Below are positions 23,875 to 28,010 of a DNA stretch of 64,000 nucleotides, one piece after another. This DNA comes from Ignavibacteriota bacterium (GTDB taxonomy: Bacteria; Bacteroidota; Ignavibacteria; UBA10030; SZUA-254). The stretch is taken from assembly GCA_025358305.1 (NCBI GenBank), contig JANYJZ010000032.1, positions 62,001 to 126,000 on the forward strand, written 5' to 3'. A program made the translations under genes and the position numbers. How positions within the stretch are numbered: the stretch's first letter is position 1; the number at the start of each line of letters is the position of its first letter. Below the pieces are notes generated by a model. The model did not search any database, was not told the DNA's origin, and saw nothing but the letters and a program-made list of their open reading frames with translations.

Positions 23875-23902
23875 TGTCAACCTTTTCACCCCTGCCTCCG
23901 TC
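23875..23902 (+). promoter_or_regulatory. Candidate ECF-type autoregulatory promoter
   Basis: TGTCAAC...CGTC: an AAC-containing -35 and CGTC -10 separated by about 17 nt, immediately upstream of the ECF sigma gene. Confidence 0.35.
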
Positions 23903-23927
23903 TTATATGACAGATTCAGGAGATCTC

Positions 23928-24512
23928 GTGACAGATGAGAAAGAATTGATCCACCGAGCGCAGTCCGGCGATACCGCAGCGTTCCGCGCACTCGTGGAGC
24001 GCTCGAGACTCCACGTCTTCCGCCTCGCCTACGACATGACGGGGAACCGTCACGACGCGGAGGATCTGTCACAGGATGTCTTTGTCAAAGCCTACCGGTC
24101 CCTCCACGCCTTCCGCGGCGATGCGAAATGGAGCACGTGGCTCTACCGGATCACGATGAACGCCTGCCTCGACCACCGCGGGGCGGCATCCCGAAAACCC
24201 ATGAACACACACGAACCCTTGAACGACGAGATCTTGCCGAGCCAGGCGCATGCGGGAGAGGTGACCCCCGACCGGGCCGCGGAGTCGCGGATCCTCGGCC
24301 GTCACATCGACGCCGCTCTCGGCCGGCTTTCCAACCGCGAGCGCGCCGTCTTCACCTTGCGGCACTATCACGACCTCCCCCTGAAGGAGATCGCCTCCGC
24401 CCTCGAGATCACGGAGGGGAGCGTCAAGTCGTACCTCTTTCGGGCGTTGGCGCACCTCCAAGAGGACCTCTCGTTCTATCGGAACGATCCCGGAATGGAG
24501 CACGCATCATGA
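23928..24512 (+). CDS. ECF-family RNA polymerase sigma factor
   Basis: ELIHRAQSGDTAAFRALVERSRLHVFRLAYDMTGNRHDAEDLSQDVFVKAYRSLHAFRGDAKWSTWLYRITMNACLDHRG ... LKEIASALEITEGSVKSYLFRAL. GTG start (23928) has AGGAGA upstream; alternative ATG at 23907. Confidence 0.93.
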   Translation: MTDEKELIHRAQSGDTAAFRALVERSRLHVFRLAYDMTGNRHDAEDLSQDVFVKAYRSLHAFRGDAKWSTWLYRITMNACLDHRGAASRKPMNTHEPLNDEILPSQAHAGEVTPDRAAESRILGRHIDAALGRLSNRERAVFTLRHYHDLPLKEIASALEITEGSVKSYLFRALAHLQEDLSFYRNDPGMEHAS

Positions 24513-25324
24513 CACACGAAGAATGCCAGGACAGATTCGCGGAACTCCTCTACGGCGGGCTCGAACCAGACGACGCCGCCGTGTGCCGGGAACACTTGCG
24601 GGGCTGCGACGGGTGCGCGAAGGCCTTCGCGGCACTCGAGTCGACGCGCTCCCTGATGGACCGGCGCGTCCGAGACGAGCCCGGCGAGGCGTACTGGGCG
24701 TCGTACTGGTCCCGGATCGAATCCCGGATCGGGTCGACCGCACCGAAGAGCGAAGCCGCCTCGCGGAGGCCGACGCCGATCTTCCGCTTGCCCAGCGCGT
24801 GGCTGGCCGGCGCGGCGGCGATCCTCCTCGTCGGGTTCGGGATCTACCTCGGACGGAACATCCTAGGGACCGCACCCTCCCCGGCCGAGGTCGCGCTGCA
24901 ACCCCCGACCGCATTGCATACGAGCGGCGAGGACTCCCTCGCCGCGCGGACCGCGTCGTACCTCGAGCGTTCCAAGGTCCTTCTGCAGGGGATCGTCAAT
25001 CAGGACGACCTCCAAGGGACCTTCGGCTCCGTCGAGCGCCAGCGGCGGATCTCGCGCCAGCTCATCGGCGAGGCGCACGTCCTTTCGGCTGCGCTGAAAC
25101 AGCCGGACCAGCAGCAGGTCCGGGAGCTCATCGCCGACTTGCAGATCATCCTCCTCCAGCTGGCGAACATCGAGGTGGAGCCCGGCACGCCGGCGATCGA
25201 GCTCGTGAAGCAGGGCGTGGACCATAAGTCCATTCTTCTCAAGATCCGCGTGGAGGAACTCCGGGCGCTCTCGCGCCGGACCTCCACCCAAGCGGCGGCC
25301 GACACCGCCAGAACACATCTCTAA
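24509..25324 (+). CDS. Zinc-finger anti-sigma factor with long extracytoplasmic domain
   Basis: ATGA overlap with sigma gene; HLRGCDGC (HxxxCxxC) zf-HC2 motif; TM AWLAGAAAILLVGFGIYLG; C-terminal IELVKQGVDHKSILLKIRVEELR. Confidence 0.85.
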   Translation: MTHEECQDRFAELLYGGLEPDDAAVCREHLRGCDGCAKAFAALESTRSLMDRRVRDEPGEAYWASYWSRIESRIGSTAPKSEAASRRPTPIFRLPSAWLAGAAAILLVGFGIYLGRNILGTAPSPAEVALQPPTALHTSGEDSLAARTASYLERSKVLLQGIVNQDDLQGTFGSVERQRRISRQLIGEAHVLSAALKQPDQQQVRELIADLQIILLQLANIEVEPGTPAIELVKQGVDHKSILLKIRVEELRALSRRTSTQAAADTARTHL

Positions 25325-25339
25325 CCCTAAGGAGCGACC

Positions 25340-26923
25340 ATGCAACGACACGCAATGAGATCAGCCGTCATCACCGCCGGAGCCATCCTTCTGCTCTTCG
25401 CCGGCGCACTTCGCTCCCCCCTCGGCGCCCAGGAGAAGGCCTCCGCTGCGTACGAGAAAGCCTACGGATACATCCTCGACGAGCGGTGGACGGACGCCCA
25501 AAAGGCGCTCGGCGAGTTTCTTCGGTCGTACCCGAAGAGCACGTATGCCGATGCCGCACAGTACTGGCACTGCTATACCCGAGAGAAGCTCGGCGAGAGC
25601 GCCGAGGAGGTTTACCGCTGCTTTAAGGAGTTCATCTCCGCCTATCCAAAGAGCAAGTGGGCAGATGACGCAAAGAACAACCTCATCACCCTCGGCACGA
25701 AGCTCGCCAAAGAAGGTAAGCCCGAGTACGCGGCGAGCATCAAGGGGAGCGACAGCGACGAGGATGACGACGTGAAGCTCGCGGCGCTCAACGCTCTCGG
25801 CAACATGGGAAGCACCGAGGCGACCTCGACCCTCGTCCGACTCTACGACCAGACCTCCGACGACCGGATGCGCGAGAAGATCGTCTATATCCTCGCGAAC
25901 AACGAGTCGGATGATGCGCTCAAGAAGCTCGCCGAGATCGCCGGAAAGGACCGCGCCCTCCCCGTCCGCAAGGCGGCTATCAACGCCCTGAGCAATCATG
26001 GCGGCAAGGAGGCAGAATCGGTCCTCATCGATATCCTGAAGAACGGGAAGGACACCGAGATGCGCTCTACGGCGCTCTACGCGCTCGCCAACACGGGCTC
26101 CGCATCGAGCATCCCTCTCCTCGGCGAGATCGCCCGGACGGAGACCGACAAGGGGCTCGCTCAAGCGGCCGCCTACGCGCTCGGCAACATGGAGAACACC
26201 CAGTCGACGGATGAACTCCGGCGCACGCTCAAGGAGGGCCGTCTGAAGGAAGCTCGGGTCGCGGCGATGTACGCGCTCGGTAACCGTGGCGATGCAGCAG
26301 CCGTGAGCATCCTGAAGGAAGCCGCCCTCACTGATGCCTCGGAAGATCTCGGGACGGCCGCCGCGTACTCCCTCGGGAATCTCCACGACGCTCAAGCGAT
26401 CGAGGCGTTGAAGGAGATCGTCGCCAAGAGCGCGTTCCCGAAGACACAGGAAGCCGCGATCTACAGTCTCGGGAACACCGGAGATGCGTCTGCGCGGGAA
26501 TTCCTGCTCCATACCGCACTGACGAGCACCGATGATCGTATCGGCAAAACAGCGCTCTATGCGCTCTGTAACTCTGAAGGGCACGACCGCGCCAAGAACA
26601 TGCTTGAGATCGTGAAGAATGCCCGATCGCGGGATGTCCGAAAACAGGCACTCTTTCAGATCGGCAACGGCGAGGACGCGGAAGGGATCCCCATCCTTGG
26701 GAAGATCATTCGCGAGGAGAAGGACCCCGAGATGCTCGTCGGCGCGATCTACGCGCTCGGCGGGACCCAGAATGACGATGCGGTGCCCTTCCTCGTCGAG
26801 GCCGCGGGGAAGGACCGGGACAAGAAGGTCCGGAGCGCCGCGGTGAACGCCCTCGGTCAGATCGGCACGGCAAAGGCCCGCGCGGCCCTCCTGGACATCC
26901 TCCAGGGGAAAGGAAAGGAGTAG
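25340..26923 (+). CDS. Exported TPR + HEAT-repeat protein
   Basis: Signal peptide; N-terminal YEKAYGYILDERWTDAQKALGEFLRSYPKSTYADAAQYW (TPR-like) followed by many AxxALGNxGD HEAT/PBS-lyase-type repeats. Confidence 0.85.
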   Translation: MQRHAMRSAVITAGAILLLFAGALRSPLGAQEKASAAYEKAYGYILDERWTDAQKALGEFLRSYPKSTYADAAQYWHCYTREKLGESAEEVYRCFKEFISAYPKSKWADDAKNNLITLGTKLAKEGKPEYAASIKGSDSDEDDDVKLAALNALGNMGSTEATSTLVRLYDQTSDDRMREKIVYILANNESDDALKKLAEIAGKDRALPVRKAAINALSNHGGKEAESVLIDILKNGKDTEMRSTALYALANTGSASSIPLLGEIARTETDKGLAQAAAYALGNMENTQSTDELRRTLKEGRLKEARVAAMYALGNRGDAAAVSILKEAALTDASEDLGTAAAYSLGNLHDAQAIEALKEIVAKSAFPKTQEAAIYSLGNTGDASAREFLLHTALTSTDDRIGKTALYALCNSEGHDRAKNMLEIVKNARSRDVRKQALFQIGNGEDAEGIPILGKIIREEKDPEMLVGAIYALGGTQNDDAVPFLVEAAGKDRDKKVRSAAVNALGQIGTAKARAALLDILQGKGKE

Positions 26924-26927
26924 CGCC

Positions 26928-28010
26928 ATGACCCCGAGAACTCTCTTCACCTGGAGCATCCTGATGCTGGTCACGGCCGGATCGGCCTTGGGCGGCCAGG
27001 AGGTCATCCGGCAGCCGCAGAGCGCGGGGGATCTCGCGCACAGGTGGGCGTGGGCCCAGCAAGAGGCCGCGCACCGAGGCGAGAAGCGCTACTGGATCGG
27101 TTATTCGATCGTAAAAATGATGCCGGAAGGATCGTTCACCGGAACGTTCTACAGCGATGAACGGCGGAACCGCCCCGCGCTGCGCGAGGTCCTCGCCGGC
27201 ACGAAGGTCGAGGAGATCGCCGCCGGCGCCCATGGCTCGCGCCTGGTCCCGAAGGAGGTCGCGTTCCTCTTTTCCATCGAACCTTCGGACGCCGGTGCCG
27301 GTAGGGTCCGGGAGGTGCGCATTTCAAATCTGACGCTTCATGTCGAGCTGGACAGGAAGCCGCTCTTCTGGCTCGAAGGGGCTCCCGACGGCGAGAGCAC
27401 GGCGCTCCTGTCGAAGGAATTTGCGGAATCGGACCTGGAGGCGGTGAAGGAAGATATCGTGCAGGGGATCGGAATGCATGAAGAGTCGGCGCTCGCCCTC
27501 CCGTTCTTGCGTAGCGTCATCGCCGGGAACGAACCGAAGGACCTCAGAAGCCGCGCAGCGATGGCGCTCGGCCAGATCCGGAGTGCGGAGTCCCTCGCGC
27601 TCCTCGGCGAGGCGGTCGAACACGACCCTTCCGAGGAGGTCCGGGCACAGGCGGTCGAGGCGATCGGCCAGATGGACAGCGCCTTCGGATTGGAAACGGT
27701 GATCCGGTTCGCCCGGGACCGCCGGCTTGACGCGGAGACCCGCCGAAAGGCGATCTCTGCGCTCAGCCAGATCGCTTCGGCCAAAGCGGTACGCACGCTC
27801 TCGGAGATCACGGAAAAGGACGAGGACGCGGAGGTCCAGCGCCAAGCGCTCTACGCGCTCGCCCAAACCGAAGGCGGCGGCATCGATGCGATCATCGCGA
27901 TCGCGAAGACGAATCCGAACAGGAAGCTCCGGCGCGACGCGATCTACATGCTGGGGGAATCGGACGATCCCCGGGCCTTTGAGACGCTCCTGGCGATCAT
28001 CCGGGAATAG
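26928..28010 (+). CDS. Exported HEAT-repeat protein
   Basis: Signal peptide MTPRTLFTWSILMLVTAGSALG; C-terminal half with repeats RSRAAMALGQIRSAESLALLGEAVEHDPSEEVRAQAVEAIGQM etc. Confidence 0.83.
   Translation: MTPRTLFTWSILMLVTAGSALGGQEVIRQPQSAGDLAHRWAWAQQEAAHRGEKRYWIGYSIVKMMPEGSFTGTFYSDERRNRPALREVLAGTKVEEIAAGAHGSRLVPKEVAFLFSIEPSDAGAGRVREVRISNLTLHVELDRKPLFWLEGAPDGESTALLSKEFAESDLEAVKEDIVQGIGMHEESALALPFLRSVIAGNEPKDLRSRAAMALGQIRSAESLALLGEAVEHDPSEEVRAQAVEAIGQMDSAFGLETVIRFARDRRLDAETRRKAISALSQIASAKAVRTLSEITEKDEDAEVQRQALYALAQTEGGGIDAIIAIAKTNPNRKLRRDAIYMLGESDDPRAFETLLAIIRE

Follow-up and report, generated by a model that had tools for sequence, protein, structure and literature searches.

The stretch analysed here, hereafter the window, comprises 64,000 nucleotides from an Ignavibacteriota bacterium (assembly GCA_025358305.1, contig JANYJZ010000032.1, positions 62,001 to 126,000; contig C12 in a host genome of 3.2 Mb and 42 contigs). 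At positions 23928-28010 it carries four co-directional open reading frames on the + strand that encode an extracytoplasmic function (ECF) sigma factor, a membrane anti-sigma factor and two HEAT-repeat proteins with signal peptides, HEAT1 and HEAT2, a unit whose gene order recurs in five or more phyla and which may sense the state of the cell envelope. The sigma and anti-sigma genes overlap in an ATGA, the gap between anti-sigma and HEAT1 is 15 nucleotides and that between HEAT1 and HEAT2 is 4, so that the very tight junctions of the original prediction, which was made from the letters and their reading frames alone, are borne out.

The sigma factor (194 residues, 23928..24512) starts at a GTG codon, a choice supported by the aligned orthologues, whose N-termini read MTDEQ... 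It matches Sigma70_r2 (4.9e-18) and Sigma70_r4_2 (1.9e-17) in Pfam as well as TIGR02937 (4.3e-32), and its restriction to Sigma70 regions 2 and 4 within about 200 residues identifies it as an ECF sigma factor. The anti-sigma factor (271 residues, 24509..25324; AlphaFold2 (AF2) model with a predicted local distance difference test score, pLDDT, of 84) opens with a cytoplasmic zinc domain (residues ~1-55, 24509..24673). The zf-HC2 match barely exceeds the Pfam cut-off (22.5 against 22.2 bits), and a profile match (E 2.2e-9) establishes homology to RsiW as solved in complex with SigW (5wuq). H29, C33 and C36 of the HxxxCxxC motif are invariant in 23 order-level relatives and each is kept in at least 90% of 62 cross-phylum sequences. 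A single transmembrane helix follows (residues ~97-119, 24797..24865; helical in the AF2 model), as in 55 of 58 cross-phylum homologues. Domain and topology, both recognised in the original prediction, are those of class I zinc anti-sigma factors of the RsiW type; on the strength of adjacency and family, the protein would bind and inhibit its cognate sigma factor, and the zinc domain is, by family, the probable site of sigma binding.

Beyond the membrane, the AF2 model forms a helical bundle, with pLDDT mostly above 75 and helices at residues 140-163, 172-195, 199-219, 229-239 and 242-270; a structure search with the anti-sigma model returned no PDB fold match at E<=0.001. The predicted periplasmic bundle (residues ~140-255, 24926..25273) contains an ILLKI motif conserved across phyla. 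The ectodomain had been described as unusually long, which does not hold within its family, as its ~150 residues equal the median among relatives (150). It had also been thought to end in ..IRVEELR; in fact, about 20 further residues follow (ALSRRTSTQAAADTARTHL) and the protein ends in ..ADTARTHL. As a separate observation, six Gemmatimonadota anti-sigma factors (L132, L140, L143, L147, L149 and L151) lack HxxxCxxC and have a short cytoplasmic part, with the ectodomain and the HEAT partners kept.

HEAT1 (527 residues, 25340..26923) consists of a signal peptide, a TPR head (~35-142) and a HEAT solenoid (~145-522); in Pfam, the head resembles YfiO/TPR_6 and the solenoid holds eight HEAT_2 stretches (2.7e-74). 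HEAT2 (360 residues, 26928..28010) carries a signal peptide, a small alpha/beta domain with a WIGYSI motif (~26-151) and a C-terminal HEAT_2 solenoid (~154-360; 3.3e-25); its AF2 model has a pLDDT of 94. Both signal peptides and the TPR-like head joined to HEAT repeats had already been read correctly from the letters. Repeats dominate the Foldseek search with HEAT2, which returned only HEAT/alphaRep matches and none for the N-terminal domain. The TPR head is present in 58/58 cross-phylum units, and in some Aminicenantes and Acidobacteriota paralogues the TPR-headed protein is only ~280 residues long with the HEAT repeats mostly gone, which indicates that what stays constant is the head rather than the solenoid length. 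Two identities for these proteins were rejected on curated cut-offs. A PBS-lyase assignment (NblB/CpcE/CpcF) reaches 91.9 of 300 bits for NblB and 35.1 of 330 for CpcE; HEAT_PBS repeats are held in common, but the proteins of this unit are exported and lie in no bilin-lyase context. A BamD or YbgF (CpoB) assignment reaches 37.5 of 81.4 and 43.4 of 90.1 bits, respectively, with the likeness confined to the TPR head. Independently, several HEAT2 homologues from Acidobacteriota and Gemmatimonadota (L137, L150, L147) have clustered cysteines in the N-terminal domain, for example CGNGRNMISLECDDGSCG, which the window's HEAT2 lacks.

The linkage of these genes was surveyed from several sides. With the anti-sigma factor as bait, matches were obtained in 33 of 60 relative genomes, and a HEAT gene follows the bundle-type anti-sigma factor wherever the contig continues. 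With an alignment of HEAT2 alone as bait in named genomes, 80 loci were kept of 183 hits, 13 of them interrupted by contig ends; among the 67 scored, sigma and anti-sigma genes lie directly upstream in 58, with the full sigma-antisigma-HEAT-HEAT order in 55 and a sigma-antisigma-HEAT order in 3. The host genome has just 15 genes with sigma70 region 2, and thus a sigma gene would be adjacent by chance in about 1% of cases. The unit occurs in records labelled Bacteroidota, Ignavibacteriota, Rhodothermota, Calditrichota, KSB1, Aminicenantes, Acidobacteriota and Gemmatimonadota, and in single records from Deferribacterota and Myxococcota, which carry little weight given that phylum names are submitters' labels, mostly on metagenome-assembled genomes (among the relatives retrieved with HEAT2, L073, identical to G008, and L086, identical to G019, are such genomes labelled Ignavibacteria and Bacteroidia). 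A scan of the genome contigs with the single HEAT1 sequence gave no match, and the HEAT2 tree, with weak deep support, fits vertical descent or transfer alike. The neighbourhood survey that had been proposed for sigma, zf-HC2 and HEAT genes therefore finds co-occurrence reaching far beyond close strains, and the reading of these genes as a real, system-like unit gains a conserved four-gene order. That the co-location is incidental or lineage-specific is highly improbable; cross-phylum gene order contradicts it, and nothing was found in its favour. Membership of the HEAT genes in the sigma/anti-sigma circuit is well supported.

A further survey, which started from anti-sigma factors and was blind to HEAT neighbours, revealed a strict pairing of ectodomain and partner. 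After a helical-bundle ectodomain comes a HEAT gene in 40/40 cases, and after a HEAT-repeat ectodomain a Toastrack/DUF4097 gene in 16/16 (Fisher 2e-14), with the class labels partly dependent, as they come from profiles of order-level members, and many of the tested loci outside the training sets. Outside Bacteroidota, all 16 gene-called bundle anti-sigma factors, fetched regardless of neighbours, precede an exported TPR-headed protein; two of these repeat bait loci. The host genome itself contains both arrangements. Contig C34 (locus L036) holds a paralogous B-type unit of sigma, anti-sigma and one TPR-HEAT protein, and directly after it a third unit, in which the sigma and anti-sigma genes are joined by those for a DUF4097/DUF5649-like (Toastrack-like) beta-repeat protein and a DUF5916 protein (sister ECF unit at L036:7040-9735), a pairing that recurs across Bacteroidota. 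The anti-sigma factor of this third unit, like those of its relatives, contains HEAT_2 repeats inside the ectodomain (2.9e-13), a Rosetta-stone hint that HEAT repeats may act at anti-sigma ectodomains. In Pfam scans, the window's unit has no HEAT hit in its anti-sigma factor and no DUF4097 gene after it, and it is not a Toastrack unit. Given the strict pairing and the HEAT repeats inside the sister anti-sigma factors, we infer that HEAT1 and HEAT2 probably contact the ectodomain. An alternative is that the ectodomain directly senses the state of the membrane or its lipids and that the HEAT proteins merely assemble or localise the anti-sigma factor and carry no signal. In many ECF systems sensing involves no soluble co-regulator, and the compact, membrane-proximal bundle with its conserved, terminal, amphipathic ILLKI segment would suit such a role. 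This alternative leaves unexplained why two dedicated solenoids of such size are conserved across phyla, and we regard it as unlikely.

The anti-sigma factor also has a distinctive end. About 22 polar, poorly conserved residues separate the (I/L)L(F/L)KI motif from the C-terminus (tail at 25259..25321), and tail positions -2 to -10 are only 9-22% hydrophobic, but of 64 A-type and cross-phylum anti-sigma factors, 59 have L, I, V, F, M or Y at the very end, compared with 23% of 643 other proteins from the same loci. The hydrophobic end is seen neither in HEAT1 and HEAT2, whose last residues are charged or polar, nor in HEAT-ectodomain anti-sigma factors. In six paralogue anti-sigma factors the final residues are SEV or SEI, which matches class-I PDZ ligands. 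A natural reading of these tails is that the last residue serves as a putative recognition handle for a PDZ domain or a tail-reading protease.

Upstream of the unit, a predicted ECF-type promoter, TGTCAACC-N16-CGTCT (23875..23903, + strand), lies 24 nucleotides 5' of the sigma start codon and is the single exact match in the host genome; the sigma factor would thereby autoregulate its own operon. The pattern AAC-N16-18-CGTC occurs in 33/93 sigma upstream regions versus 12/500 other genes. In 1.39 Mb of loci, a looser motif matches 58 times, compared with 20 matches of the reversed pattern and 14-20 after shuffling, which implies that about one third of the looser hits are noise. Of these hits, 38 lie directly 5' of the unit's own sigma gene and none before an unrelated gene, while others precede seven HEAT2 genes outside sigma operons and three DUF5916 genes (six and two independent cases, respectively, as L054 and L104 are the same genome). 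In the host genome, one-mismatch sites precede the paralogous sigma gene and an exported tandem-PDZ gene (L187:421-1461; host C18:173326-174366); the other such sites lie inside genes or not before a gene and were set aside as chance. The motif is retained by 11 of 12 window-family genomes with the tandem-PDZ gene, with NGTCTA replacing CGTCT, the form found before B-type sigma genes, and in another family the tandem-PDZ gene lies inside the B-type operon after the TPR-HEAT gene. From motif form and position, this gene most likely belongs to the paralogous sigma factor.

In the main rival explanation, the HEAT proteins are outputs, produced upon sigma activity as scaffolds or chaperones of the periplasm, and the ectodomain senses alone or answers to some other protein. 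The sigma-type motif before sigma-unlinked HEAT2 genes (L054, L082, L094, L100, L111, L114) fits this, BamD/YbgF-like TPR heads, like HEAT solenoids, commonly serve as scaffolds, and the DUF5916 and PDZ genes indicate that exported proteins are among the targets. Outputs are usually replaceable, however, yet a HEAT or TPR-headed gene follows every bundle-type anti-sigma factor tested, and the sister family exchanges ectodomain and partner jointly. We consider an output role a possible but somewhat doubtful account of the unit.

The reading we favour, to which we assign a probability of about 0.5, is that the unit is an autoregulated ECF envelope-sensing module resembling RpoE-RseA-RseB, with two exported solenoids in the place of RseB. 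It builds on gene order, topology, ectodomain/partner pairing, promoter pattern and terminal residue, which the sequences show. At rest, the zinc anti-sigma domain would keep the sigma factor at the inner membrane, while HEAT1, with the TPR head found in every unit, and HEAT2 would bind and gate the periplasmic helical bundle. The solenoids might then be filled by cargo from the envelope, which could be outer-membrane proteins (DUF5916, for instance) that are unfolded or mis-assembled, and once they were occupied the anti-sigma factor would be open to release or proteolysis; a PDZ protein or tail-recognising protease might grip it by its hydrophobic C-terminal residue. The freed sigma factor would transcribe its own operon, restocking the HEAT brakes, together with a small envelope regulon. 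That the HEAT proteins gate anti-sigma release is something we infer, as are the sign of the effect, the signal and the protease.

That the circuit faces the outer envelope is pointed to by the PDZ gene of the paralogous regulon and by the DUF5916 genes beside many units. Such genes, which encode a CBM9-like domain and a large C-terminal domain (L036:1716-4133, L036:9893-12295, L039, L041-L044), are found no more than two genes away from the unit in 16/32 order-level loci. A CBM9-like N-terminal domain, an export signal and a hydrophobic C-terminus (23/27 proteins) suggest that DUF5916 may be an outer-membrane barrel.

Several observations weigh against this interpretation. DUF5916 lies within two genes in just 6/60 cross-phylum loci and is absent beside the window's unit. 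In B-type units, the tail end is hydrophobic in 8/20 only, and the tail type does not track the presence of the tandem-PDZ protein; with no such correlation, that protein was dropped as the binder of the anti-sigma tail. The promoter motif is loose, as its background shows, and its occurrence before sigma-unlinked HEAT2 genes fits an output role as well as that of a feedback co-regulator. The original suggestion is thus upheld in part: the autoregulation motif and the DUF5916 and tandem-PDZ associations fit envelope sensing, and the HEAT proteins may act as ligand or partner sensors at the ectodomain but, on the same data, could also be products of sigma activity. Additions to the original prediction are the terminal hydrophobic residue, the promoter, the host genome's paralogous units and the sister Toastrack units.

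Among known systems, the closest is RpoE-RseA-RseB(-RseC) of E. coli, with a role in outer-membrane homeostasis (PMC8103513). Like that system, the window's unit is an operon, by prediction autoregulated, in which an ECF sigma factor and a single-transmembrane anti-sigma factor are followed by a putative periplasmic co-regulator, but it has a zinc-type anti-sigma domain, an unrelated helical-bundle ectodomain and two TPR/HEAT solenoids, and Pfam and NCBIfam scans detected no RseB (MucB/RseB family) domain in any of the four proteins. SigW-RsiW and other class I pairs have the N-terminal zinc domain and single transmembrane helix in common with it, but not the large conserved ectodomain, the dedicated exported HEAT partners or the hydrophobic tail end. 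ECF/DUF4097 (Toastrack) units resemble it in their sigma factor and zinc anti-sigma domain, which are related to those of the window's unit, and in having HEAT repeats as well as an exported solenoid; they differ in that the HEAT repeats lie within the anti-sigma factor itself and the partner is a beta-helix. A 2024 survey of PSP/Toastrack systems mentions a sigma factor linked to the operon, and the word "HEAT" matches only "heat shock" and "heatmap" in it. The components are of known kinds; a description of the ECF and HEAT arrangement was not found in the open-access literature searched, which did not include the group notes of the ECF reclassification, where an earlier mention is possible. 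We tentatively suggest, with some doubt, that the units represent a separate envelope-sensing class, in which exported HEAT solenoids would gate the dedicated ectodomain of an anti-sigma factor with a PDZ-ligand-like C-terminal handle, and ectodomain and partner would be swapped together, so that across several little-studied phyla the identity of the partner would encode the signal.

For 102 of 157 ECF groups, no signal or mechanism is known (2021 review, PMC8103513). The same four-gene form is found in several phyla for which genetic systems are scarce, with the cultured Acidobacteriota Acidicapsa dinghuensis and Terracidiphilus gabretensis among its carriers, and its promoter, the rule that pairs ectodomain with partner and the one terminal residue are concrete parts that can be tested. 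The unit may reveal how the outer membrane is monitored in bacteria other than Proteobacteria, and would assign functions to the exported HEAT, DUF4097 and DUF5916 families, which now have none.

Two further gene arrangements were observed around the paralogous units. After several B-type units, the product of the next gene is an exported TPR protein that carries a thioredoxin/AhpC-TSA domain at its C-terminus (L061:8309-10243). In paralogous units of Aminicenantes and Acidobacteriota (L255-L257, L260, L263 and L265), whose anti-sigma factors are those ending in SEV or SEI, the short TPR-headed protein ends in a domain with IPWALADL..GYDLDRI, and in five of these loci the same domain recurs in a separate exported protein of 127-135 residues.

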